DNA of 64,000 nt from NCBI RefSeq assembly GCF_000740895.1, contig NC_025260.1, positions 1,840,001-1,904,000 on the forward strand, read 5' to 3'. The stretch comes from Theileria orientalis strain Shintoku. Lineage: Eukaryota; Apicomplexa; Aconoidasida; Piroplasmida; Theileriidae. Under the pieces are notes generated by a model. That model did no database searches, had not been told where the DNA came from, and saw nothing but the letters and a program-made list of their open reading frames with translations. Shown piece by piece: positions 6,971-29,944 of the stretch (position 1 is its first letter; each line of letters starts with the position of its first letter). Both the position numbers and the translations under genes were made by a program.

Positions 6971-8585
6971 ATGTGTTTGTATATTATTTTAGCAACTTAT
7001 ATTTTCTTTAATAAAATCTATTCTTGTTCGTACGCTAAGGATATTTTCCCTACGAATTCCTATTATGAAATTAAACTTTATAAATCGGATAAACTTTCGG
7101 ACGAAGACTATTTTAAGGTTCTTGATGCGAAAAGATATTCAGAGAATTCAACTAGGTTTTATGATTTAAAGAATGTGTTATCCAGCAGCATTGCTTTGAA
7201 GGCTGATTACACATCTAAGCTCTGGGCCACCTATTACGGCAATATAATAGTCGGTTCCGCCAAAGAGACGAATTCATTCAGGGTACTGTTTGATACTGGG
7301 TCATCTGAATTCTGGGTTCCATATGAACTGTGCGTATCGAGGCAGTGCTTAAGCCGCAAGAGGTACCATAAAACCTACGAGTGGCGAGCCAAACGTGACA
7401 ATAAGGGAAACTATGTTCCTATCGAAATTAAGTACTTATCGGGTGAAATTGATGCAATAGACGGGACGACAAATGTTAATTTGTTAAACGGAATAACTCT
7501 GAAGGATGTAAACGTCGGACTTGCTGTTAGTTCGCATTATTAATGCTTCCCTCTTAGACTAATATCAATATTCCTGCACTGGGTGACACACACTGGGACG
7601 GAATCGTCGGCCTGGGATTTAAGACAAAGGAAATGGAATCCAGGGGTTCAAGGCCTCTTTTAGAGTCAATTATGTGCAATAAATCGCTATATCCCAACTA
7701 TAGAAACCAAGTAGCCTACTACGTATCGAAAAACGGTTCGATTAAGCAGATATAAAAAGTCAAATTTTCAATTTTTAGGAGGAAATATCTCATTTGGTGG
7801 CATCAATCCCAACTATAAAAGATCGCAAAACGACGAATTTGTGTAAGTGTTTAAGTTAGTAACACACCAACTTATTATAGATGGGCTCCCATCGTAAAAG
7901 ACTCAGTTTACTGGAGCCTTAAGTTAAAAGACGTTAAATTTAAGACAACGACAAGACATAAGAGCCCAAATAGCCTGAGTGCAAACAGTGATTTCATATC
8001 CTTAATGAGCAAAATAGATGGTAAGCTTACTTCTCTCTATAAATTACCGCATTAGATGTGAAGGTTATCATGGACACAGGTAACAGGATTCAGTAAAACT
8101 TGATTTTTAGGATCATTTCTAATCTACGCGCCCCAAGTAGGTATTAATTATTAATTATTTGGCAGAGTATGAGTCCGCTTCTGGCCAAACTGCAGGTCAC
8201 ATCCTGTGACGAAGTAATGGATAAACCGGTTTTAGTGTTTATAATCGAAGGAAAATCAGGTTTGCATAGTTAATGAACGATATATCCCATTTGTGCGATT
8301 AGATGTTAACCTGGAGCTGAAGCCTGAGGACTACATCATCATGTATGAGGACTCTAATGGAACGAAACATTGTACACTCGGAATAGTACCAGATAATCAG
8401 CAAGAGGTAAGAAAATAACAGAATAGTATAATCATTAGGAATTGGGATTTAACGCGTGGACATTCGGAGAGGTAACACACAAATACACTCATGAGCGCAA
8501 ATAGTTGTTTTTGAGGGCATATTATACAGTTTATGATTACGAATCCAAACAAGTTGGTTTCGCACCAAGCAAGAAGATAGATTAA
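6971..8585 (+). CDS. Pepsin-like (A1) aspartyl protease with signal peptide
   Basis: The ATG at 6971 opens a protein with a hydrophobic leader (MCLYIILATYIFFNKIYSCS), so it is predicted to enter the secretory pathway. The first catalytic motif is FDTGSSEFWVP (about 7287-7320). The in-frame stop after 7540 is removed by a 32-nt intron (7527-7558), giving VGLA joined to TNINIPALGDTHWDGIVGLG. Further introns fall at 7736-7778, about 7842-7880, 8021-8055, 8089-8109 and others. The second catalytic Asp lies in VIMDTGS (8062-8113), and an intron splits that DTG motif. The C-terminus shows the family hallmarks GFNAWTFGE and YTVYDYESKQVGFAPS. Apicomplexan relatives process secretory-organelle proteins or act in egress, invasion and food vacuoles; which role applies here cannot be told. 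It is noticeably more A+T-rich than its neighbours. Confidence 0.85.
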
Positions 8586-14570: not shown

Positions 14571-17500
14571 ATGCCAAAGTTTAGAAGGGACCAAATACCC
14601 TTCATGCCCTCGTGCTTCATCAACTTCGTATGGGCGTTCTCATCGTTCCTGAGCGTGGACATGATCAAGCTGTACTCGTACCAGTTTATGCACGACGTTA
14701 ACTACCCAGGACTGTTCTACGGAGTCTTCGCAATCTCGTTCATGCTGCTCATATTCCTGAAGTTCAACAGAGTGTTCACGACAGTCATGGTAGTGTGGTT
14801 CAACTTCGGAGTACACCTGATGTTCATGTCATTCATATACTTCCCAGCGAGAAACAGAATATTCTTCATGATCATATTCGGTCTGTGGAGCCACCTGTAC
14901 GCAATGAACCTGATCTCGACAGTGTACCTGGCCTCGTATAACCTGGGAGGACTGCACGGGTTGATCATGGGCACGACGATGGCGTACTACCTGGGCTACT
15001 TCCTGCAGCACGCAGTGGAGCACCCGTCGGACTTCAGCATCGCGTCTAGAAGGTCGACGTGCAACTGGTTCATAGCAATCAGGTTCATCACGTCAGTGAT
15101 CTCGTTCAAGTTCTACAGAGACTACCTGGAGTTCTTCTTCTACTTCGAGTACAACGACGCAGTGAAGAGGACGTCGATGACGGACATGTTCAAGTGGGTG
15201 GACGGGAAGCCTGTGGAGATCATGAGCTCGGTGAGGATCACGGAGCTCATGCCGTCCTCGATAGACTACGAGTGCCTGAAGCACCTGTTCATGGACCACA
15301 AGGACACGAGCACAGTGTACCTGGTACTGATCTACCTCTCGTACGTGACGTCGTCGTTCTTCTCGCCGCTCCTGTCGCCGACGCCGCTGGTCCTCTCGAT
15401 CTTCGTGAGGAACGACGTGTACTTCGTGGAGTTTTGGGGAGGCCTGCTGGGCATAACGGCGGCAATACTGCTGAGGCGGAACATCGAAAACATGGCGCTG
15501 GTCGTATACGGGGTGCACGTGTTCATCGCAATCGCGTCATCCTTCGGATTCAACACGCGCCTGTTTAACACGTACAAGCACAAGAACGTGCTGTACGGAC
15601 TCTCGTTCCTGTCCTCGTGCCTGGGCACGTTCGTGCTGGTATACTCGTTCATCAACTTCATCTCGTTAAACTCAATAGTCTCCTGCACAAACCAGAAGAA
15701 GAAACACACGACGATCGAGGAGTGCGTAGTGTGCTGCAAGAATGACACGGCGACGTGCCTGTGTTACAACAAAAACACGAACGAGACGTGCTCGCACACG
15801 AAGAAGGAGGACGCGCAGGAAAACAGGCTGGCGTGCGCGAACATATGGGTGCCCTGGAACAACCACTCGACGTACAGAGACTGGACGTACAGCGACTGCG
15901 AATTCTGCCTGTCGCAAAACTACAGTAACACGAAGGCGAAGTGCAAGTGTAGTACGGAGAGCGACAAAGGAGGAAACGAGTTTCACTGTTGCACCTGCGC
16001 CTGCTCTATATGCAAAGAAAAGGACGTGTGCGGCTGCACCTGCAAAGGAGTAGAAGATTGCGCGCAGACCTGTTGTTGCAAGAAGAAGAACAAGGGAGTG
16101 GTGAACTACCTTCTGAGGAACTGCATAGTGTCATGTTGCCCGTACTGTGACATGTGCCTCATGCTGGAGTGCGTGAAGGTAGACTGCGTGTGCCCGTGCA
16201 AGCACAAAAAGCACGAGCCGAGGAACGCAATAGAAAATGAGACCAAGGAGGAGCAAATGTCGCTGACGAAGATAAGGCTGAGGATGGACATTAATCAGAA
16301 TAAGCACCTGTTCCTGTGCACGTACTCAGATGCACCGGCATCGGACCTGGAGTATCTGAAGAAACAGTTCTGCTGCTGCGAAGAAGAAGAAAAATGCAAG
16401 GGGCAGGAGTGCTGCATCAAGTGCTGCAAGAGGTGTAAGAAGAAGGGCGACTCGTGCGGGAAGCACTTCAACATCGCAGACTACAAAACGTCCTCGTGCT
16501 GCCACTACGACTTGAAGGTGTGGATGAGCCTCAAGGAACTTAACACGATGTTCCACATAGGCCAGAGGCCGTTCAAGAACAAGTATGAGCAGATCAACTC
16601 ACTGGTATTCGCAAACGAGGCCTGCAGGCACTGCTGCACAGGCTCAGGCTGTTGTGCAAATGCTGAGAAAGGAAAGTGTACAGACTGCAGGTCGGCGGAC
16701 GTGGTGAAGTTGATTGAGAATTCGAGTCTATCGCAATCAGGAGGAGCAGTGAAGATGAAGTGTGGTGCCAGAGGGTGCAATATTAGTGTTAGTAGTGTTA
16801 GTAGTGCTACTAGTGCTAGTAGTGCTACTAGAAGTGACAATGTAGCTGGATCTAGTACTAATAGTGGGCCTAGTTCCACTACGAGTGGTGCCGTTGGGCC
16901 CAGTTCTGGTAGTGACAATCCTAAGTCTGAACCTAGTAGCTGCAAGTGTTGCTGCTGCTGCGGTAAGGGAGGTGCTTCGGAAAGTGGTACGCATAGCGGT
17001 AGGGGAGCTGGTGCCCCTAGTGGTACAGGTACCGGTGGTGCTACTGAAAATGGTATAAACAGTGCTAAAAGTGGTAAGGAAACTAAGGATGGTAAGTGCA
17101 AGTGCTCATGTTCGTCACGCACCACTGCAGAGTGCCAATGTAAGGAAAACAGATGTAGAGCGGTAAAGGTGTTGCCGACGAACCTGCCGTACCAGTTCAG
17201 AGGAGTGGACATAAAGAGGAACGAGGTTATCTCGCTGCTGGGATTCACAGTGGTGCTCTTCTGCGTGGTAAAGCTGATCATGGCACTGGGGTTCTCGCTG
17301 ATAAACCAGAGAGACAGCCTTAAGCTGAGCTTCGTAGTGGGCGACTTCACGAGCATCAACGGAATGACAATCAAGACGTTCCCAATGGAAGACTACGAGT
17401 CAGACAAAAAATGCGCACTGCAGAGAGTAGAAAACTACAACGGGCCCGACGAGTTCCTGATCAACTACGCAATAGACCTGGAGGTTAAGGACTTGGAGGA

Positions 17501-18167
17501 CAGAACGAGGGGAATCAAGGAGATGATGGACGAGCTGAACTCGCTGAAGTTCGACAGGTGGCTCGAGGAAATCATCAAGGCGCCCTTCGAAGTAATGTCA
17601 GTGGGATACACGAAGCTGCGCTTCTACAAGCACCTGAACAGGTACATCGACCAGGCGCTGATGAACCACGCATTCAAGACGGCGGACAGGATCTTTGTGT
17701 ACTTCGACAAGTTCCCGGAAAGGTGGAACATCGAGTGGAGCGACTTTGAAAGAAGGTTCCTGCAAAACCTGAAGGTCTACACGAGCTACTCGCTGAGCCT
17801 GAACAGCGTGGGCTACTTTGACACGAACACGGAGTTCCAGAAACTTATCAACAACAGGCAGTCGCTGATCCTGGAGCACCTGAACTCGAAAAACGATAAC
17901 CTGACGGGATACCTGACGAAAAACAGAGACCTGCTCGAGAAGTACAGGAAGGCGAGTCCGCACAGGAAGCTGCCGAGGTACATAGACCTCTGGGAGTACA
18001 GGACGAACCTGATCAAGGGCTGGGCGGCAGACAAGACGCTCTTCCTCAACTGGACGCCATTCGTGGTCTCGATGGAAAGAATACTGCTCTGGAACAAGCT
18101 CTACAGAGGGTTCTACATGAGAGCGTTCAGAGAGAGGTACGGGGAGGCCGACAGCACGCCCCGCTAG
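14571..18167 (+). CDS. Large multi-pass membrane protein with a very Cys-rich insert, unknown function
   Basis: Single exon, 1198 residues, starting MPKFRRDQIPFMPSCFINFV. Residues about 10-390 contain roughly ten hydrophobic helices, with an overall look of a transporter (for example GGLHGLIMGTTMAYYLGYFL). Residues about 390-870 form a cytoplasmic or luminal insert with about 67 cysteines by hand count, many in CC, CxC and CCCC clusters, mixed with Lys/Glu. Part of it (about 730-850) is a Ser/Gly/Thr low-complexity run with unusual codons. Another hydrophobic helix (SLLGFTVVLFCVVKLIMALG, about 905-925) is followed by about 270 helical, charged residues. I do not recognise a family with confidence. 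The N-terminal part could be a divergent MFS-like carrier; dense Cys clusters suggest zinc or other metal binding, or disulfides if luminal. Lack of introns contrasts with most neighbours. Confidence 0.85.
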   Translation: MPKFRRDQIPFMPSCFINFVWAFSSFLSVDMIKLYSYQFMHDVNYPGLFYGVFAISFMLLIFLKFNRVFTTVMVVWFNFGVHLMFMSFIYFPARNRIFFMIIFGLWSHLYAMNLISTVYLASYNLGGLHGLIMGTTMAYYLGYFLQHAVEHPSDFSIASRRSTCNWFIAIRFITSVISFKFYRDYLEFFFYFEYNDAVKRTSMTDMFKWVDGKPVEIMSSVRITELMPSSIDYECLKHLFMDHKDTSTVYLVLIYLSYVTSSFFSPLLSPTPLVLSIFVRNDVYFVEFWGGLLGITAAILLRRNIENMALVVYGVHVFIAIASSFGFNTRLFNTYKHKNVLYGLSFLSSCLGTFVLVYSFINFISLNSIVSCTNQKKKHTTIEECVVCCKNDTATCLCYNKNTNETCSHTKKEDAQENRLACANIWVPWNNHSTYRDWTYSDCEFCLSQNYSNTKAKCKCSTESDKGGNEFHCCTCACSICKEKDVCGCTCKGVEDCAQTCCCKKKNKGVVNYLLRNCIVSCCPYCDMCLMLECVKVDCVCPCKHKKHEPRNAIENETKEEQMSLTKIRLRMDINQNKHLFLCTYSDAPASDLEYLKKQFCCCEEEEKCKGQECCIKCCKRCKKKGDSCGKHFNIADYKTSSCCHYDLKVWMSLKELNTMFHIGQRPFKNKYEQINSLVFANEACRHCCTGSGCCANAEKGKCTDCRSADVVKLIENSSLSQSGGAVKMKCGARGCNISVSSVSSATSASSATRSDNVAGSSTNSGPSSTTSGAVGPSSGSDNPKSEPSSCKCCCCCGKGGASESGTHSGRGAGAPSGTGTGGATENGINSAKSGKETKDGKCKCSCSSRTTAECQCKENRCRAVKVLPTNLPYQFRGVDIKRNEVISLLGFTVVLFCVVKLIMALGFSLINQRDSLKLSFVVGDFTSINGMTIKTFPMEDYESDKKCALQRVENYNGPDEFLINYAIDLEVKDLEDRTRGIKEMMDELNSLKFDRWLEEIIKAPFEVMSVGYTKLRFYKHLNRYIDQALMNHAFKTADRIFVYFDKFPERWNIEWSDFERRFLQNLKVYTSYSLSLNSVGYFDTNTEFQKLINNRQSLILEHLNSKNDNLTGYLTKNRDLLEKYRKASPHRKLPRYIDLWEYRTNLIKGWAADKTLFLNWTPFVVSMERILLWNKLYRGFYMRAFRERYGEADSTPR

Positions 18168-18563
18168 CGCAGGGGAGAGATAATGTGTTGGAGGTACACG
18201 TGTACATGTTAGATGTAGATCCAATCTAAGAGTTGGAGCTAACACAAGACTGAAATAGATGGATAAAAAAGCTGGAACACCAAATATACAGAATGAAAGG
18301 GTGAGAGTATAACGAGTGTGATAATGGATAAGTGATGAGGAGTATATACACTACGTACCAGCGTACAGGAATAATATTTGTATTTAAGTGTATTTACATG
18401 GAATTTTGTTAAAAACAGAGAAGATTAATCTTATAAAGTTATATAATAAAATAGGAGGACCAGATTATAGGGAATAACAAATAAGTAGTGATTGTGTCGT
18501 GATGATTTGGCGGAAGGGACACGCGGATAAATCTGGAACAAGCTAGAGAGATTGTTGAAAATA
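18168..18563. other. Intergenic spacer before UFD2
   Basis: 396 bases between two + strand genes. No supported ORF. The in-frame TTG at 18552 upstream of the first ATG is not used as a start here. Confidence 0.5.
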
Positions 18564-21500
18564 ATGCCCGAAGACGCCGTTAAAGTAAATATTTTGCATA
18601 CATTGATACAAAATGTGCTCAATATAACGATAAGGAAGTCGGAAAGGAGCCAGGCGCAGCCAAACCAGTCGGAGCAGCCGAAGTTGTACGTAGGCCACCT
18701 GTACGGAAGAGTAAGCGGCGTGGAAGACACGGAAAACAAGTACCTGGGAGTGGAAGACCTGGACGACGTGGTTCGCTCAGTGATATACGTGTGCATACTA
18801 CACAACAAAAACGTGCTGGTAAACCTGAACGACTCGTACACGAGGATTAGCAACGGAATCACTAAAATAAGCAAAGGCCAGGGGCTGAGTCAGCTGTTTA
18901 AAGCAGAGGAGGTGACCAGAGCGAGCAGTGAGCCGCTGAAATCGGAGCTGATTTCGGCGCTGGAGAATGTGCAGGCGACGCTGGTGGCGAACGCGTCGCT
19001 GATCATGATCTTCCCAATATACTTCAACCTCACTGACGTAATCAACGAAAGCGAGATCAAGAGAGCGTACCTGGACGTGTTAGACGAGAAGGTGCTGTCT
19101 GAGGTGTTCCTGGACTTCGCAACCTCCACACACAACAGCAGTTTCCTGCAAAACATGACGACGGCGATGTGGGAGAGCGACAGCAACGCAGCGAAAGTGA
19201 GCTACACGAACGTGTTCAACATGATGAGAGTGAGGATGGCGGCGAGAGGGCTGAAGAGCAGCAGCGCAAGCGAAGTTAAGTTCCTGACGGAGGCGCTCGG
19301 ATGTAAGCCAGTGGCGGAGCTGTTCCTGGAAAACATACGCAAGTTTGAACTGGAACAGCCGTTCTTCAAGTCGTGCGGAGTGAAGAGAGAGCTGATGACG
19401 ATATTCGGAAGAATGCTCTCAGTAACGTCGCTGGACGAGGAGGCGTACCAGGCGTGTAAGCTGCTGGGCCTGAAGAACATATACGAGGCGAGCAAGGTGG
19501 ACAGAACGAGCGACTTCTACGGAAAGAGAGACCTGAACCACATCAAGTCGGTCATCAACGCGAAGAGGTTCGAGGCGGAACACGCAATGAACGGACTGCT
19601 GCAGATGCTGAAGGTGATACTGAAGTCCGACGCAGCAGCGAGGAACGAGATCCTGTCGATCCTGGGGAGGATAGTGGCCTTCAACGTGAACAGGAAGAAG
19701 ATATACGGACTGACGAACATAGACAGCGCGCCCTTTAGCATGGACAGCATGTACTACCACAAGCTGGTGATGATCTCGGACAACACCTTCGGCTACGGCA
19801 TAAACCTGACGTGGCTGCTGCTGCTGCTGGCGCAGGGAATCAGCGTGGCGAAGGCGGACGAAATAGAGCCTTCATACTGCCAAACGGCAAGCATGGCGAG
19901 CAGGAAGCTGAAGTCATTGAAGGTAAAACCAGTAAACGGAGTGGCCGCAGAAGCCACCTCAGAAGGCGCAGAAGCAGAAGACGCGGAAAACGGTACATCA
20001 GGCCGGACTAGCACCGACACACAGACAGCTAGTTCTGAAGCCGCTAACACACTATCCGTTAGTTCTGCAGTCGGTAACACACAAGTGGCCGGTACAACCA
20101 CATTAGTTGGTAACAGACAAGCAGGTACTAGTGCTGCAACCGTAAATACTGCACCCGGGGCCACGACAGCAGTTGGAAATACAGAAGGTGAAGCATATAT
20201 GAAGGAGCAACTGACAAAAATTGAGACTGAAATGACAAATATACTGGGATTCCTATGTAACTCATCGTGTATGGGAGACGAGAACGACGTGAGGGAGGCG
20301 CTGAGGACGATGGGAGTGGACGCAGTGACGCTGTACAATAGTAAGTTCATAACGCAGATATTCTGGCTGACACTCAAGGGAGTGAACATGCTGTTCATGC
20401 CAGCACTGCAGGAAAACCTGAAGCTGCTGACGCAGGCACTCAACTACGCAAGCACGTCGCAGAACCTGAGCGCGAACGACGATAAGCTGGCGAACTACAT
20501 ATCGCACGTGTACGTGTGGAGGACGCCGCTGCAGCACCCGGCGCTGCTGAAGGCGCTCTGGCACTACGTGAACATAGCGCTGCGAGTGTTTCTGCGCTGC
20601 TTCCTGCTCTACGACGCGAAGGGAGGAGTGAAGGAGGACTACAAGGGGCTCTACGACAGCGCGAAGGGCAAGTTCAGCGCGCTCGTGGAAAAGTACTGCG
20701 AACACGTGCTCGACACGGACAAGGCGGCGGCGCCGCCGCAGTTCACAGCGCTGCCAGTGGAGCTGATAGAAACGGTGCTCGACCTGGTGAAAAACATGAC
20801 GATTCTGAGGCAGTACGACCACTACATCAAGCCGGCGGAGGGAGACCCGCTGGAGGGGATGGACTTCGAGCTGGTGATCTCGGCCTGCATCTTCATCATG
20901 AAGTGCCCGAACGACGTCATCAAAAACATACACATCAAGTGCGACATGGCGTGCTCGACGATACTCTACCTCTGCAAGTTCTCGGAGCAGTCGGCGGCGA
21001 AGTTCGAGAACAGCAGCGTCTGCAAGCAGCACCTGATGGACGCGCTCGTGCGCACCTTCATCTCCTCGCAGAAGTCGAACTACAACACGAGGATCTCCTC
21101 GCGACTCAACATCATCCAGAGCTTCACGCAGTTCTTCGTGCACGCCTCGTACAAGAGGAGCTTCGTCTCATGCATCATCTCGAAGAAGGACCTCTTCGTG
21201 CAGTTCATGCACCTGCTGCTAAACGACACGAACTTCCTGGTGGAGGAGGTGGTCTCGTACCTCACGGAGATTCGGAGGCGCGAGGTCGCAGGAATATCGC
21301 TGGAGGAGGCGCCGGGTCAGGCCGGTGGCGGAGACCAGCAGGGGGCGGCGAGCGGGGCCTCGGGCTCGGGAGGAGGCTCGAGCAGCAGCTCCGCCGCCAG
21401 GAACCCCAGGGGCCAGGACTACGACGACGCCGACCAGTACGTGCAGGAGGGCGCGATTGACGCGAACCAGCTGAAGTCGATGAGCGGACCCGAGCTGAAG

Positions 21501-22445
21501 AGCAGGACGCGCAGCTTCGTCGAGTACGGCTTCGAGATATGCTCGCTGCTGAACATTCTGTGCAGCGAGTTCCCCTCCGACATCACCAGCAGCTCGGTGC
21601 TGCTGCCGCAGGTGGCCACGTGCCTCGGCTGCTGCCTGGAGAGTCTGGCGGGCCCGAAGTGCCTGCAGCTGAAGGTGAAGAACATGGACGAGTACGGGTT
21701 CAAGCCGCGCGAGTGGCTGTCGAAGATAATGAAGTGCTACATCGCCCTGTACGAGAACGACCCGGACTCGAGGTCGACTGCGAGTTCAATAGACAGCTTA
21801 TCGTCAGGTTCTGTCGTCGGTACTGCTACCGGTGTACCTGTTGCCGGTGTTACCGCCTCCAATGCTACCGGTACCATTACCACTGGTGTTACTGGTACTG
21901 TTGCTGGTGATACTGTGTCTGATGTTACTGGTACTGTTGCTGGTGATACTGGCACCGCTGTGGGCGCTCCCTCAGACCAGGCGAACTCCGAAGAAAACTA
22001 CGACTACGAGGACGAAAACAACCCCTTCGTGAAGGCGGTGGTGGCGGACGAGCGCTACTACAAGCCGGAGCTCTTCACGCGGTGCGTCAGGTTCGCGACG
22101 CGCGAGATGCTGCTGAGCTACAAGTCAATCAAGTCGTTCAACAAGCTCGCAAACAGACTCCTGGAGCACGCCAAGAGGACGAGTCTGCTCTACGAGAACG
22201 CGTCGAACGCGGAGATCCCCGAGCACTTCCTCGACCCGATCATGATGGACGTGATGGAGGACCCTGTGCTCCTGCCCACCAGCGGGAAGGTCATGGATCG
22301 CAAGAACATTGAGCGCCACCTGATGTCCGAGGCCACGGACCCCTTCACGCGCGCGCCTCTGGACCGCTCCCAGCTCGTCGACCAGCCCGATCTGAAGAGG
22401 GAGATAGTTGCCTTCCTGAGGTCGCTTTCACGGTCGAGCGCCTAG
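18564..22445 (+). CDS. UFD2: Ubiquitin conjugation factor E4 (UFD2/UBE4), U-box E3/E4 ligase
   Basis: Intronless, about 1293 residues from ATG 18564 (MPEDAVKVNIL). The C-terminal 75 residues are a U-box: IPEHFLDPIMMDVMEDPVLL, then PTSGKVMDRKNIERHL, then TDPFTRAPL. This is the RING-like, zinc-free fold that recruits E2 enzymes. The preceding region is helical and matches the UFD2 core in length and features (for example LNDTNFLVEEVVSYLTEI and SLLNILCSEFPSD). UFD2 proteins extend ubiquitin chains on substrates delivered with Cdc48/p97 in protein quality control. Two low-complexity inserts break the core: Thr/Ala/Ser-rich near 19980-20190 and Thr/Gly/Val-rich near 21780-21960. A Gly/Ser-rich linker lies near 21310-21400. 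The inserts use different codons from the rest. Confidence 0.9.
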   Translation: MPEDAVKVNILHTLIQNVLNITIRKSERSQAQPNQSEQPKLYVGHLYGRVSGVEDTENKYLGVEDLDDVVRSVIYVCILHNKNVLVNLNDSYTRISNGITKISKGQGLSQLFKAEEVTRASSEPLKSELISALENVQATLVANASLIMIFPIYFNLTDVINESEIKRAYLDVLDEKVLSEVFLDFATSTHNSSFLQNMTTAMWESDSNAAKVSYTNVFNMMRVRMAARGLKSSSASEVKFLTEALGCKPVAELFLENIRKFELEQPFFKSCGVKRELMTIFGRMLSVTSLDEEAYQACKLLGLKNIYEASKVDRTSDFYGKRDLNHIKSVINAKRFEAEHAMNGLLQMLKVILKSDAAARNEILSILGRIVAFNVNRKKIYGLTNIDSAPFSMDSMYYHKLVMISDNTFGYGINLTWLLLLLAQGISVAKADEIEPSYCQTASMASRKLKSLKVKPVNGVAAEATSEGAEAEDAENGTSGRTSTDTQTASSEAANTLSVSSAVGNTQVAGTTTLVGNRQAGTSAATVNTAPGATTAVGNTEGEAYMKEQLTKIETEMTNILGFLCNSSCMGDENDVREALRTMGVDAVTLYNSKFITQIFWLTLKGVNMLFMPALQENLKLLTQALNYASTSQNLSANDDKLANYISHVYVWRTPLQHPALLKALWHYVNIALRVFLRCFLLYDAKGGVKEDYKGLYDSAKGKFSALVEKYCEHVLDTDKAAAPPQFTALPVELIETVLDLVKNMTILRQYDHYIKPAEGDPLEGMDFELVISACIFIMKCPNDVIKNIHIKCDMACSTILYLCKFSEQSAAKFENSSVCKQHLMDALVRTFISSQKSNYNTRISSRLNIIQSFTQFFVHASYKRSFVSCIISKKDLFVQFMHLLLNDTNFLVEEVVSYLTEIRRREVAGISLEEAPGQAGGGDQQGAASGASGSGGGSSSSSAARNPRGQDYDDADQYVQEGAIDANQLKSMSGPELKSRTRSFVEYGFEICSLLNILCSEFPSDITSSSVLLPQVATCLGCCLESLAGPKCLQLKVKNMDEYGFKPREWLSKIMKCYIALYENDPDSRSTASSIDSLSSGSVVGTATGVPVAGVTASNATGTITTGVTGTVAGDTVSDVTGTVAGDTGTAVGAPSDQANSEENYDYEDENNPFVKAVVADERYYKPELFTRCVRFATREMLLSYKSIKSFNKLANRLLEHAKRTSLLYENASNAEIPEHFLDPIMMDVMEDPVLLPTSGKVMDRKNIERHLMSEATDPFTRAPLDRSQLVDQPDLKREIVAFLRSLSRSSA

Positions 22446-22726: not shown

Positions 22727-25700
22727 CTAGAGCTCATAATTGCTGTTGAACATGTTGAGGTCCTGGTGCTGCCTTCCGTCGAAGTCAACCACTTGCATCA
22801 GTCTGCACAGGCTAGAGCCCACGTGAACGGGCCGCCCAGCCATGAGTGCCCCCGAGGGCGTCTTCAGGTTGTCGTACGCTCCTCGCTCCGAGGCGCTCAT
22901 GAGGAACTTCATGGTGGACTCGAACGACATTTGCAGCAGTGGAGATGTGTGTTTTGCCATGCCGTATCTCGTGAAGGTTCTGACGTCGCCTACAAAGTTT
23001 ACATTAGTACTAGTTGACTAGTAATTTGGTTAATAGGTTAGTTGGCTGGCTATCTAACGATGAGTTAATGACTACGTTAATGATGCGTTAATGACTACGT
23101 TAATGATGCGTTAATGACTACGTTAATGATGCGTTAATGACTACGTTAATGATGCGTTAATGACTACGTTAACGATGAGTTAATGACTACGTTAATGATG
23201 AGTGCGTGGCTATATAACAGTAAAAACACCAATAACAGTAACCAGTAACTGAGTAACTATGATAAAAACGAATAACTGCGTGACCCAGTACCTTGCTGCG
23301 TCATGAAGTCGGCCAACAGTGTTAGGTGTCTGTAGTCCACCGTGATGCCGTACACTGAAAACACCTTGTTCAACTCTGAAACGATGCACGACCGCGCCGC
23401 CTCGATTCCGTAGTACTTCAGCACCGTCGCCACGTCGTTCAGCTTCACGACGTTGAAGTCGACGATGTCCTCCCTGATCATGAACAACCTCGTCAGGTTC
23501 GTCCCGTCGCAGTGCAGCGTGAACTCGTCCTTGTCGTTCACCGTGTGGCAGACTATTCTCGACTGCCTTATGTTCGGAGAGTCCCTAAGCGTCTGACGGG
23601 ATATTTCCTCCTTGAGTATAGGGTACAGGTCCAGATAGCTGAATCAATTGTTACTAGCTGCAGCATCATAATCTATTATTTAAACGGCTGTTGAACCATC
23701 TATTATTATTTAGACGCCTGTCGTACTATACACAAGAACTTATATACATGTGTGAGTGGCTGACGTGTAAACTTACTAGGGGCACTTTGCGAAGGGCCAT
23801 CCGAACTTGAGTTTAAGAGTCGACGTTTCCTCGGAGAAGTCCAGCGACTTCACAAATTGGAACACTAAATAATATTTGTTGGATTGTAGGTTGTACTGAA
23901 TAACTAACTGCTACCAGTGCGTAATTTGAGTAAATATCTAGTTGCCCGGATAGTTGAATGGTTGTACTATGAACCCTATCAATAATCAGGCCTAATAGAC
24001 TAAGCAGCTATTTACATAGACTGGTGGCCGATCGCCGGCTACTAAATACCTTTCCTGTCTATTGACGATATGTTCTGCTTTCTGAACTTAAGCTGCGGCG
24101 TCTTCTGCTCCAGCACTGGGTCGTCCGCGTCCTGCTCGTGCTCGAACGCGTCAATGTCCACGCTCAGGTCCGCCTCTTCTCCTTGGTGCGGAGTCCCCTC
24201 GACGTCCTGCGTGTCCAGCTCCGGCAGCTCTGCTTCCTGCGTCGCGCTTGAACTGTAACTCGCAGAACTGCTCAGCTCCCCGTCAGAGTAGTAGTCCTCC
24301 TCGTCCTCGTCAGTGTGTGTTCCGTAGCCCTCTTCTGAAGCGGCGCCATCGCCTGCAGCCGCCTTCTCACTAGACTTGCGTCCACGCGCCTTGTCGCCGT
24401 CGCCGTCGCCGTCGTTGCCATCTCCCCTTGCTCCGAACTCGTTTTCTTCCTCATCATCCTCATCAACGTCTGCGTCCTCGTCGTCGTAGTCTCCTTCGTA
24501 CTCCTCTTCCTGGTCAAACTCGTCTTCCTTCTCCTCCTGCTCCACCACTCCCATTTCTCTTTCCGAAGCCTCCGTGTTCAGGTTAATTATTTTATCGTGG
24601 TCTTCGAAATGTTTCTGAGGCACTCTCGTCGAGGAGCCTGATGCCAGCACCATTTTCCTTATCCTGTTCGAAATCTTGTCCCTCTTCACTATCTGCTTCT
24701 GCATCACGAACATGTTCCAGAACTCCTCCAGCTGGTCGCTCTTGTCCTGCAGCTCGAAGGGCACATTCACGTCCATCGTCACGATCATCTGGCCCATCAC
24801 TCTCTTCATGAACGACTTGAGCAGGCAGTTTGAGCACAGCTTCAGTATGTCCTGCGTCTCAAAGTCTCCGATCTTGCTTTTGAACTGCTCCAGGTCGTCA
24901 AACTGTATTGTTGCCTCGTACTCCCACTCCTTCTCCGAGTTTGCGTTGACGTACACGTTGCTTTCGATTCCCACTGAGTGCACGACGTCTGACAAGTATA
25001 TTTTCCTCAGTGCGTTCGTTGCGTTTTCTGCGTTTGCTGCGATTTCCTTTTCGCTGTTTCCTCTGATTGGCGCTGAGAAGAACGGCGTCGAGCAGCTCGA
25101 CGTGTTGTGCAGTATTTCCAGCAGCCTCGGTATTCCCAGCGTCACGTTCGTCGCTCCGTGTCCCGCAAGGTGAAACGTGTTAAGCGTCATCTGCGTTGCT
25201 GGCTCTCCTATGGACTGCCCTGCTATGCATCCCACTGCGTCTCCCGGCTCACACTTACACTTGTTGAAGTACCTTTCAAAATCCGGGTCGTAGTCTCCAC
25301 TCGTTTTCTGGTTCCCTGGGTTTCCTGGGTTCTCTGAATTTCCTGGGTTTCCTGGGTCCTCGCCGTACTCGTGCCCGTACACTTGTTCACCCTTACTGTG
25401 GTCCAGCTTCCTCTTCTTCACAATGCTGTCAACACCCTCATATGTATCAGTACGTTGGGTCCTGCTGTTATAACCGTCGCCACAGTGGCTACTGCCCGTT
25501 TTGGAAAAGGCGCTCCCGCTCGACCTGCGGCCCGTCGAGTAGTACAGCTGGTTTACCTGCAGGTCCTGCAGCTGCGACAGGTACGAGCTCTTGGACACGT
25601 CGATTCCGTCCTCGCCGTACTTGAACTGGATCACGTTCCCGTTCGAGTCCCTCACCGTCGCGTCGTAGCAGACGATCACGTCCTCCATGGCCTTGAGAAC

Positions 25701-28700
25701 GCACCTCTGCAGGTATCCCGTCTTCGCCGTCTTCACGCACGTGTCGACCAGCCCCTCCCTCCCCGACATACAGTGGAAGAAGTACTCCTGAGGCCTCAGC
25801 CCCGTCAGGAACCTGTCCGTGATGAATCCTCCTGCCCTCGAGCCGAAGTCTCCGAAGGCGAAGCAGGGGAGCGTCCTCACCGAGGGCATCACGGGCACTC
25901 TCTTGCCCTCGAGCGTCTGCTGCGATAGTGCGCAGGATATCATTGCGAAGTTGACCTTGCTTCCCTTCGCGCCCGTTGCCACCATGGTTGCGAAGCCGTT
26001 TCTCGGGAACTTGACCACCGTGCTGTCCACCAGCTCGTTGATGTCGCTCGACACTCCCACGATGTTGCTCTGGAAGAACCTGTCGAACGTGCTCAGGATG
26101 TCGTTCCCTCTCGGGCTTTTGCAGACCATGTTGTAGAACCTGCTGCACGTCGTGTACGCGTCTCCTAGCTTATATTTTGTGCTGTCGTCGCCTTCTGAGG
26201 ACCTGCTACTCAGCGAGCCCTGCTCTCCCTTTCCGTTTCCGTTGTGCAACCCGCTTGCTCCATTCCTGTTACCGTTCGTGCTAGACACTCTTTCCGAGCA
26301 CTCTGACAACCATGTAGGGAAACACAGCTGCACCATGTTCAGGTTCGAGTCCTCCGGCAGGTCTGCAAAGTACTTCAGAATCGCGTTCTTCACTTTCGGC
26401 ACTCTGCAACACGACTCCAGCAATCGATGCACATAGTTGTTGACTCTTTCTCTCATGATACCGCCTGTGCTGTGTCCAATACATTCTGTCAAGACCTTGA
26501 ATAGCAGCTTTCCGAACTCTCCAAATGATCTGCAGGCGTCTAAATCCCCCGACGTAACACTATTCACTTGACTTTTCACCTGTTCGCAGAAAACCTTAAG
26601 GTCATCCTTCAACTCAACTAACAATCTCTTCTCCCTCCCATTCACTTCACTGTGCCTCAAATGACCTTCTTTGTCCCTCCCACTCGCTTCACTATTGTCC
26701 AATTGCATACTTTCTCCTTTTGTTCCATGACTTATTCCCTGGCTTGTTGACTGATTTCCTTGACTACCTTCTCCAGTTACTTCCGTAACACTCAATTCCG
26801 TGTTAATGTCTTTCAACTTGCTCGAGCCGTTTGTGAGATTCTGTTTTTTCGTGTTCCTTGATAGCGCCATGAACAACTCCTGCAGGTGCAGTCCTGTGTA
26901 CTTTATTCTTCTCAGTATTTTCAACCTTTCCTTTTCTGCCGATTCCGTCAGCAGGAAGTCCCTCGGACTGCAAGTCGCTCCTCTCATCTGCAGATATGAC
27001 GTGAACAGGTACGAGAAGCTGTTCAGCAGCATTCCGCACACTCGCGGTCCCAGCAGCTCGAATATCAGGTGCGTGAGTCCGTACGAACTTGCTCCGAACT
27101 GCGACTTGTCCAGCACTCCCTGGAGCAGCTCCGAGTTCCTTATCACGATCGTCGACTCCTCCTTGTCTCCGTCGTAGCACCCTCCCCAGGCGTCTCCCGG
27201 CGTCTTCGACTTCGACGTCAGGTTAATTCCTCTGTACTTCTTCTCGAACTCCAGGTCTCCCAGCCCCAGCGCGATGTTGTCGATCAGCGTTTTAAACACG
27301 CACGTTACCACCTGCTTGCCCGTGTACAGCTGCTTCGGGTACAGTATTGCCGGCAGGTCCAGGTACACCTGGATGCTCCGGTTCGTTATTCTCCTCGCGA
27401 ATGGGTCCGAGAGCATCTTCAGCCTCTTCGCCAGCTGGTGCAGCTGCACGTCCAGCTTAACGTCCTCCTCGATGTGGTGCAGGTCCTGTCGTCCCAGGTA
27501 TATCGAGGAGGTCGCGCTCACGAAGGAGTTAACCGCCAGGTATACGAGGTTGCAGAACTCCGCCTTCGTGAAGAACGTGTCTCTGCTCGTCAGCAGCGCT
27601 CCTCCCTGGCAGTGGTCCTGGATCAGCCCTCTGATCGGCTGTCCGTTTTTGGGCACCACGAACTGGCAGTCCGCGTTTGCGATTAGCTGCGCCTCCGACT
27701 GCGACAGGTAGTCCTGCGGCAGGTGCAGGTTCATTTCGTCTCCGTCGAAGTCCGCGTTGTAGGTGCTGCAGTTGACGTAGTTGAGCCTGAATATCTTCTG
27801 GCGCGTGAGCACCTTAACGAAGTGCGCCATGATTCCCGGCTTGTGCAGCGTCGGCTGTCTGTTCATCAGCACCACGTCTCCGTCGAGGATGTGCCTGTAG
27901 ACCACCTTCGGCGCGTTCCCCTCCGCCAGACCCACCAGCAGCAGCTTCGACTTCGCCACCCGCTCGTTGTGGCTCAGCGCCGAGAGGTTGTAGACCTTCC
28001 CGTTCGTGTCTCTCAGGAGCTTCGCTCCCGGGTACACCTTAGGCCCGTTGATGACCATTTTCCTCAGGAAGTTGACGTTGAACCTCGTCACGTACTCCGG
28101 CACTGTCAACTCCATTGCGAACTTGAGCGGCATTCCCATCTGATTCGTGTCTATGAAGCAGTCCGGCGCGATAACTGTCCTTGCTGAGTAGTTGACTCTC
28201 TTTCCTATCATGTTCTGTCTGATCGTTCCCGTTTTGTGCTCCAGCGTCTGCTTCAGTCCTGGTCTCGGGTTCCCGTTATCCATGTACTGGAACAGCTTCT
28301 TCTGCAAGACTACTATCTGATCTCTTATTGCTTCGTTCAGGTCATTATAGTCCTTCAGGTAACTCTCGAATTGCTCCAGCTGCTTCTCATCTATCTGGTA
28401 GTTCATCTTCACCAGGTATTCGATCAAATTGTTTTCTTTGCGTCCTCTCTTGGTCCCATTTACTCCCTCGCCACCATCACTCCCACCTTCTGTCCTACCA
28501 GTTGATTCCAACTCATTCTTAACTTGCGTACTTTTACTGACTCCATTTACCTCCTTTCTGTTTCCGTATTTAAACTGCAGCAGCAACTTTATAAACTCGT
28601 TTGACGTCACTATGTCCAACAGTGATGACGACCTCGTGTGCAACACTATTTGCTTGTTTGCCGTTATTAGCGGCGGTCTAAACCTATTTGCTGACACTCC

Positions 28701-29944
28701 CATGCACTCCATGAAGAATATTTTATACTTGTGTACTCTCGACTGTGGAAATAGGTGCGATAGCAGCTTAGCGTAGTTTGCGAACAGGTGCGATAGGTAC
28801 GGTATCAGGTGAAACGACTGCAGCTCCACTTTGTTCACCGACTTTCCCGTCGGGTTCAACATGTCCATTTGCGACGACGATATATCTGAGTTAACCATGT
28901 TAACAACCTCCAGCATCTTCGCTTCGTATTCGTCCAGCTGCTTATCGTGCTCACCGTCACCGTTGTATAGTCTGGGTTCTGAACCGTTGCTATCCCATCC
29001 TTCTCCCACTGAACTAGCTTCATTTTCAGCCCTCTTCTCGTCCTCTTCAGCTTCTGAGCCTTCACTTTCACTTTTCGGTTCACTTTTATTCATTTCTGCC
29101 TCCGAGTACAAATCACAGTCCGTTTCCAGAAACTCTCTGTAGCTCTTTATCAGGTTCGGCTTCAGGTACGTCTGCGGCCAACTCAGCTCTATTGAGCACG
29201 AGTCGTTTGCTTTTATTGAGAACTTCGCGTTTGACCCGCAGTGCGAGCACTTACTCAGCTTCGCTCCCTCCTCGAAGAACCTGTTCCTTATCTCGTTCCA
29301 CACGTTGTACTCCTCGTCCTTCTCTCCCTTCCTCTGGCCTCCTCCTTCCCTCCTCTCCTCCTTCTGGGTGTTCTCAATTTTAGTGAGAATGCTGCTTATC
29401 ATCTCCTCTCTGCACTCTCTGAACAACTCTCCGTGCTTATCCGACCTACCTGAACAAACCGTCACTTCCTCTCAACTTACTATCAAACTCCTGCAGCATT
29501 TGGTCCAGGTACTTCGTGTCCGACAGCATTCCCGTTTGGCACATCTCGAACAGCGCTACGTACTTCGAGAGCTTCCAATCTCTGAACTTGATCCTTCCGC
29601 AGTAGAAACACACCTACCCATTAACATTATATCCTTTTACTTACCGTCTTCAGCAGCTTACACAGGCTCTTCATCATCATCGGGTGGTACAGTGGTATTG
29701 CGAACTCTATGTGTCCCAGGTGTCCGTCGCAATTCGACATTTCGTTGCAGGATCCGCAGAGCCTGTATATCTCCGTCGACCCGAGGCAGGGGTCGTAGAT
29801 ACACGACTTTCCTGCCGACTCGTGTCCCATTCTTCCTACATTCTTCACTTCCGAGAACGAGAGCGACCTTATGTCTCTGCTCGAGAGAAAGGAGAAGGAA
29901 AGTCCCTCTATCTCAGTAGATACTGTAGAATCATAACTCAGCAT
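22727..29944 (-). CDS. RPA1: DNA-directed RNA polymerase I largest subunit (RPA190/RPA1)
   Basis: Starts at ATG 29944 (MLSYDSTVSTEIEGLSFSFL) and ends at 22727. It has at least six exons; the main exon covers about 29450-24050. The N-terminus has the clamp zinc site (CGSCNEMSNCDGHLGHIEF and, after an intron, CFYCG). Key motifs are NMIGKRVNYSARTVI, RQPTLHKPGIMAH, the catalytic NADFDGDEMNLHLPQ (three Asp bind Mg2+), GSRAGGFITDRFLTG, and GCIAGQSIGEPATQMTLNTF followed by HLAGHGATNVTLGIPRLLEIL (bridge/trigger helices). A long acidic insert (about 24100-24560) in the jaw and the C-terminal end (SPLLQMSFESTMKFL, LMAGRPVHVGS) identify the Pol I enzyme, which makes rRNA in the nucleolus. C-terminal exons at about 23880-23785, 23640-23290 and 22980-22727 complete the jaw and cleft. 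One C-terminal intron carries a minisatellite. Confidence 0.93.
23064..23202. repeat. 23-bp minisatellite in an RPA1 intron
   Basis: Six nearly identical copies of a 23-base unit (GTTAATGACTACGTTAATGA plus TGC) lie inside the intron between the last two exons of the RNA polymerase I gene. Variation is limited to single bases in the last copies. Confidence 0.9.

Follow-up and report, generated by a model that had tools for sequence, protein, structure and literature searches.

In the window, by which we mean the whole 64,000-nucleotide stretch of the Theileria orientalis strain Shintoku genome that was analyzed, one gene encodes a conserved Theileria protein (P0001) in which a polytopic membrane domain is followed by a cysteine-rich domain, a further helix, and a tail that is also conserved (Table 1). 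The protein family is real, conserved, and so far without a name. Within residues 371 to 870 lie 67 of the 73 cysteines of P0001, in agreement with the roughly 67 that an earlier reading, made from the sequence alone, had assigned to a single insert. That sequence-only reading had the insert begin after residue 390, whereas it starts at about residue 372 and has its last cysteine at residue 862; the further membrane helix placed behind it is present.

Table 1. Positions of P0001 and its parts, of the neighboring genes, and of the tandem paralogues (window positions, except those prefixed L004)
Feature	Position	Strand	Remarks
P0001 gene	14571-18167	+	Single open frame, ATG start, 1,198 residues; orthologues align end to end
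Polytopic hydrophobic domain (residues 1-370)	14571-15680	+	About 7 to 10 helices; only 4 Cys
Cys-rich insert (residues 372-862)	15684-17156	+	Cys conserved across five orthologues
Core common to second subfamily (residues 633-683)	16467-16619	+	Contains CCH
Ser-rich low-complexity spacer (residues 737-790)	16779-16940	+	Largely missing in four orthologues
9-base tandem repeat inside Ser-rich spacer	16784-16831		
Gly/Ser-rich spacer (residues 798-842)	16962-17096	+	Length varies among orthologues
Post-insert membrane helix (residues 886-906)	17226-17288	+	Strongest hydrophobic segment of P0001
Conserved C-terminal tail (residues 907-1198; 292 residues)	17289-18164	+	One Cys (948); homologous to second-subfamily tail
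UFD2-type ubiquitin elongation factor	18552-22442	+	Ufd2P_core and U-box; one frame of 1,297 residues from TTG
RNA polymerase large subunit	24045-29465	-	One frame of 1,807 residues; Rpb1 domains 2 to 5 matched, domain 1 not
Tandem paralogue, first	L004:934-4173	-	Single-frame gene, 1,079 residues
Tandem paralogue, second	L004:4687-8040	-	Single-frame gene, 1,117 residues

The densest 50 residues of P0001 contain 14 cysteines, which is the joint highest value among the window's 370 stop-to-stop frames that are 60 residues or longer (median, 2). The dense packing described in the earlier reading stood for CC and CxC when the letters of the protein were shuffled: CC occurs 16 times against 8.8 expected (reached by 22 of 2,000 shuffles), and CxC occurs 17 times against 8.8 (reached by 0 of 2,000). 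CxxC is barely over-represented (13 against 8.9; 174 of 2,000 shuffles). The N-terminal domain had been credited with about ten helices, a figure that is fair and not firm. At one threshold, 7 hydrophobic segments precede the insert in P0001, P0002, P0003, and P0005 and 10 precede it in P0004 from T. parva, while a home-made topology calculation, described below, has 8, 10, 10, 9, and 9 pre-insert segments in its best paths for P0001 to P0005, respectively.

When about 5.8 billion proteins were searched for sequences with exact five-residue words in common and a length 0.55 to 1.75 times that of the query, four relatives of P0001 were found, all from Theileria: MACK_000682 and MACJ_003464 from T. 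orientalis, one T. parva Muguga protein named “putative integral membrane protein,” and A0A3B0N1L2 from T. annulata. A search with the five-sequence profile found no relatives beyond these four at E ≤ 10. Of the two genera in which an orthologue search had been proposed, Theileria and Babesia, orthologues were found in Theileria, and no Babesia relative was among the protein-database matches of this search of limited sensitivity; the apparent absence from Babesia and T. equi is to be read with the limited reach of a word- and length-limited search in mind. If upheld by a better search, the apparent absence outside Theileria would make the family a trait of the genus.

The orthologues are 1,074 to 1,136 residues long and resemble P0001 from end to end, with identities of 79 to 82% in T. 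orientalis and 52 to 53% in T. parva and T. annulata and with nearly identical cysteines. Over residues 371 to 870, 63 of the 67 cysteine columns are gap-free in all five sequences, and 58 of those 63 are invariant, compared with 98 of the 307 gap-free columns occupied by other residues. The cysteine pattern is therefore strongly constrained, and the conservation in orthologues on which the sequence-only reading had staked its case is present. The sequences differ in the lengths of the spacers between cysteine clusters, and some cysteines have been gained or lost in T. parva and T. annulata. Two variable Ser/Gly-rich spacers account for the extra length of P0001 over its orthologues. Three histidines, each within three residues of a cysteine (His545, His632, and His645), are invariant in all five proteins, as is a run of five cysteines at residues 793 to 797.

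P0001 also has more distant relatives in its own genome (9,010,364 bases in 6 contigs), where it gave two weak matches (E = 6.1e-4 and 0.0168) to one 1,122-residue frame on another contig. At that place lies a tandem pair of paralogues, each with the same layout of N-terminal hydrophobic segments, cysteine-rich middle, strong helix, and tail, and the two are 32% identical to each other. At least three family genes are present in the genome; queries with P0007, P0011, P0006, P0004, and three pieces of P0001 found no further ones, and residues 1 to 370 of P0001 alone had no paralogue match there. In the protein search, the pair had four relatives among the 7,997 candidates sharing the most words, three from T. 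orientalis (MACL_00001375, MACK_001294, and MACJ_003656) and one from T. parva (Q4N727). P0007 shares 99% identity with MACL_00001375. Q4N727 is about equidistant from the two paralogues (34% and 31% identity); the duplication may be old, or a second T. parva copy may have been lost or not found. Compared with P0007 and P0009, P0010 (MACJ_003656; 961 residues as deposited) lacks 76 residues at its N terminus and 43 farther inside, and from this comparison its deposited gene model may be wrong.

Profile comparisons link this second subfamily to that of P0001. A first comparison of whole profiles aligned 137 tail columns (E = 4.7e-11), and further comparison aligned a block of 51 columns in the cysteine domain (37% identity; E = 1.9e-6) and 272 tail columns (17% identity; E = 1.1e-6), each E value being that for a single comparison. 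No homology of the two N-terminal domains was detected by the same means (E = 0.21). The 51-column block is not a by-product of cysteine richness, since it scored 50.2 and the maximum was 19.6 in 60 controls in which the cysteine columns were fixed and the rest shuffled. Within this core, CCH is the sole cysteine-containing motif kept in all 11 proteins, including all six of the second subfamily; the T. orientalis members also preserve the xDL that follows it, which is variable in the T. parva and T. annulata proteins. The common CCH core and the homologous tail were found across both subfamilies, which are alike in layout, cysteine core, and tail. The second subfamily differs in having fewer cysteines (49 to 61 in total, versus 72 to 87), a possible additional hydrophobic tail segment (5 of 6 members at one threshold), and N termini that cannot be aligned with those of the first. 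An internal duplication of the cysteine domain, to which SCC strands that looked repeated by eye had pointed, was rejected by profile comparisons. Among six comparisons of four candidate segments, five gave scores that were reached by 14, 40, 28, 20, and 8 of 60 controls, and the cross-subfamily core alone stood out (0 of 60).

The statement that no named family has this architecture held, in that the protein as a whole matched no described family. P0001 matched no Pfam family at E ≤ 10, and neither did the paralogue pair match any; six further family proteins gave one subthreshold match to an unrelated family, Fucose_iso_N2 in P0005 (E = 0.014, under its cutoff), which was dropped. NCBIfam held nothing credible for four family proteins (weak matches to MPN313 and PspC were dropped), and PDB sequences held nothing credible for either subfamily. 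An AP2-I chain (8rwu) matched with the single sequence at E = 0.01 and was missing from the five-sequence profile matches; the other PDB matches of P0001 had E values of 0.51 to 3.1, and those of the second subfamily to D-tagatose 3-epimerase, SLC53A1, and a signal peptidase subunit had E values of 0.13 to 3.7. All of these were dropped, as were weak matches to DUF7315 and DUF1179. No family profile of the major facilitators or of another named carrier was matched, and “carrier-like,” the term applied earlier to the N-terminal helices, derives from the helix count alone and found no counterpart in Pfam, NCBIfam, or PDB sequences. Full-text literature searches brought up no description of P0001 or its kind in titles or abstract openings among the matches listed, and the locus tags MACJ_003464 and MACK_000682 are absent from the available main text of two papers (PMC9323827 and PMC9610513).

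Piroplasms have evolved several multihelix membrane families of unknown or uncertain function, such as mtm and Tpr, from which the present family differs in its few genes, its unusually large cysteine domain, and the conservation of its cysteines between species. The available text on the Tpr/Tar proteins of Theileria describes single-exon, multihelix membrane proteins of unknown function whose conserved C-terminal region typically has five predicted helices (PMC10730637). P0001 is like them in occupying a single frame, one that aligns with its orthologues throughout, and unlike them in that no segment after residue 906 passes the threshold. The mtm proteins of Babesia bovis are described in the available part of their source as exported, with ten helices and about 49 kDa, and in the table there T. 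annulata and T. parva have none (PMC7561165). The number of helices is similar, but about 49 kDa would leave no room for an insert like that in P0001, with its 1,198 residues.

For the function of the cysteine domain, we tentatively favor, at less than even confidence, a reducing location, for which the parasite cytosol is the most likely candidate, and a fold built around zinc or copper ions bound through thiolates. If the domain is cytosolic, its roughly 67 free thiols, spaced as CC and CxC and accompanied by conserved histidines, would point to metal. Conserved histidines near cysteines (in CCH, CGxH, and CxH) would help to hold the metal, and the domain would buffer it or exchange it with the neighboring membrane domain; the membrane domain as a transporter, the identity of the metal, and the direction of transfer are guesses. 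The broader proposal, that these are Theileria-specific membrane transporters in which about 40 to 70 cysteines form a metal-thiolate sponge between helices, serving zinc or copper uptake or buffering in a parasite naked in the host cytosol, is speculative and, taken whole, unlikely.

Metallothioneins, which are small, soluble, and about 30% cysteine, offer the nearest likeness in CC and CxC clustering, and this likeness holds in part of the family. CC was over-represented in seven of eight cysteine domains (at most 50 of 1,000 shuffles) and more weakly so in P0011 (87 of 1,000), and CxC was enriched in five of the eight and not in P0004 (198 of 1,000), P0006 (158), or P0011 (263). The domain is unlike metallothioneins in being part of a membrane protein, in its length (375 to 500 residues across the five orthologues), and in having no profile match to them; nor was any metal-binding family matched by the family proteins. 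Lysine or arginine next to cysteine is a metallothionein habit. It is enriched in P0001 (13 of 1,000 shuffles) and P0007 (41 of 1,000) and not in the other six domains tested, and metallothionein-like Lys-Cys pairing was set aside as not conserved (2 of 8 domains). It also counts against metal that, for large cysteine-rich domains containing aromatic residues, disulfide bonding and an extracytoplasmic location are the more common case. In favor of metal, Theileria lies free in the host cytosol, so that during such stages even an outward domain would be in reducing surroundings.

The choice between metal and disulfides would tell whether the protein more likely handles metals or sits on the surface. 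The sequence-only reading had made this choice hinge on topology and was right to frame it so: a cytosolic cysteine domain would argue for metal-thiolate binding, and an outside one for disulfides by default. By the positive-inside rule, the side richer in lysine and arginine is the cytosolic one. Counted over the 15 residues that flank the post-insert helix together with its two end residues, these residues are more numerous on the cysteine side in 10 of 11 proteins (the exception being P0006, with 4 versus 6), which fall into two subfamilies with two members 99% identical and are not 11 independent witnesses. A positive-inside topology calculation, which is a crude, simple dynamic programming on an unreferenced hydrophobicity scale, places the cysteine domain inside in 7 of 11 best paths (P0001 to P0004 and P0007 to P0009) and outside in 3 (P0005, P0006, and P0011) at a weight of 0.6; in the truncated P0010, the domain is split by a doubtful helix within it. 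The C terminus is placed outside in all five members of the P0001 subfamily; in the second subfamily, several members of which gain one tail helix, it is placed inside in 5 of 6. The score gap between the two placements is small (0.31 to 4.07 units at a weight of 0.6 and 0.12 to 2.12 at a weight of 0.3). Taken together, the charges and the calculation lean weakly toward a cytosolic cysteine domain; N-glycosylation sequons, counted as a possible guide to topology, were set aside.

A disulfide-rich ectodomain is almost as likely as the metal reading. The cysteine domain, cross-linked by disulfides, would then face outward, at the parasite surface, at an exported location, or in the lumen of the endoplasmic reticulum, with a role in binding or shielding, and the tail would be cytosolic. 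Conserved aromatic residues and hydrophobic stretches between the cysteine clusters suggest a folded domain, and the presence of only one cysteine in the tail of P0001 is consistent with this arrangement, as are the three outside placements in the topology calculation. Furthermore, outside its cysteines and with its variable low-complexity spacers, the insert diverges faster than the rest of the protein: the identities of P0001 to the T. parva and T. annulata proteins are 46 and 44% in the insert, compared with 57% to both over the N-terminal portion and 51 and 50% over the C-terminal portion. However, the charge bias at the post-insert helix and the seven inside placements speak against an outward domain, as does, weakly, an odd number of insert cysteines in 3 of 5 orthologues (totals of 67, 67, 68, 70, and 73). 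A compositional precedent in the same order is VESA1 of Babesia bovis, an infected-cell surface protein that has an N-terminal domain rich in Cys and Lys, according to the available text of its source (PMC12064010). By that description VESA1 is set apart from P0001, whose cysteine domain is internal and follows 7 to 10 hydrophobic segments, and no VESA1 was among the protein-database matches of the family.

It is improbable that the cysteines serve to carry lipid, with runs like CKCCCCC and the stretch at residues 514 to 537 palmitoylated and a cytosolic loop held against the membrane. Such strings resemble those of cysteine-string proteins, cysteine-rich windows in residues 514 to 537 reach a hydropathy of 1.39, and the invariance of the five-cysteine run would suit this role. 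However, hydrophobic neighbors of cysteine are unenriched in all eight cysteine domains, and no family match points to it. Other frames of at least 100 residues are open across parts of the same stretch, but four orthologues that align over the full length at 52 to 82% identity, together with two paralogues of the same layout, leave a spurious frame or an assembly error with a negligible chance.

The contrast once drawn between an intronless P0001 gene and intron-rich neighbors stands for the gene itself, which is a single frame, and for its upstream side, where no stop-to-stop frame between window positions 8000 and 14570 exceeds 202 residues. It does not stand downstream: the UFD2 and RNA polymerase genes are also long single frames, so the absence of introns from P0001 is not unusual locally. 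The true start of the UFD2 gene is probably a later ATG, and the RNA polymerase gene may have a first exon upstream. Antisense within the RNA polymerase gene, at window position 26042 on the plus strand, is an 80-residue stop-to-stop frame with 22.5% cysteine, which is probably a shadow frame.
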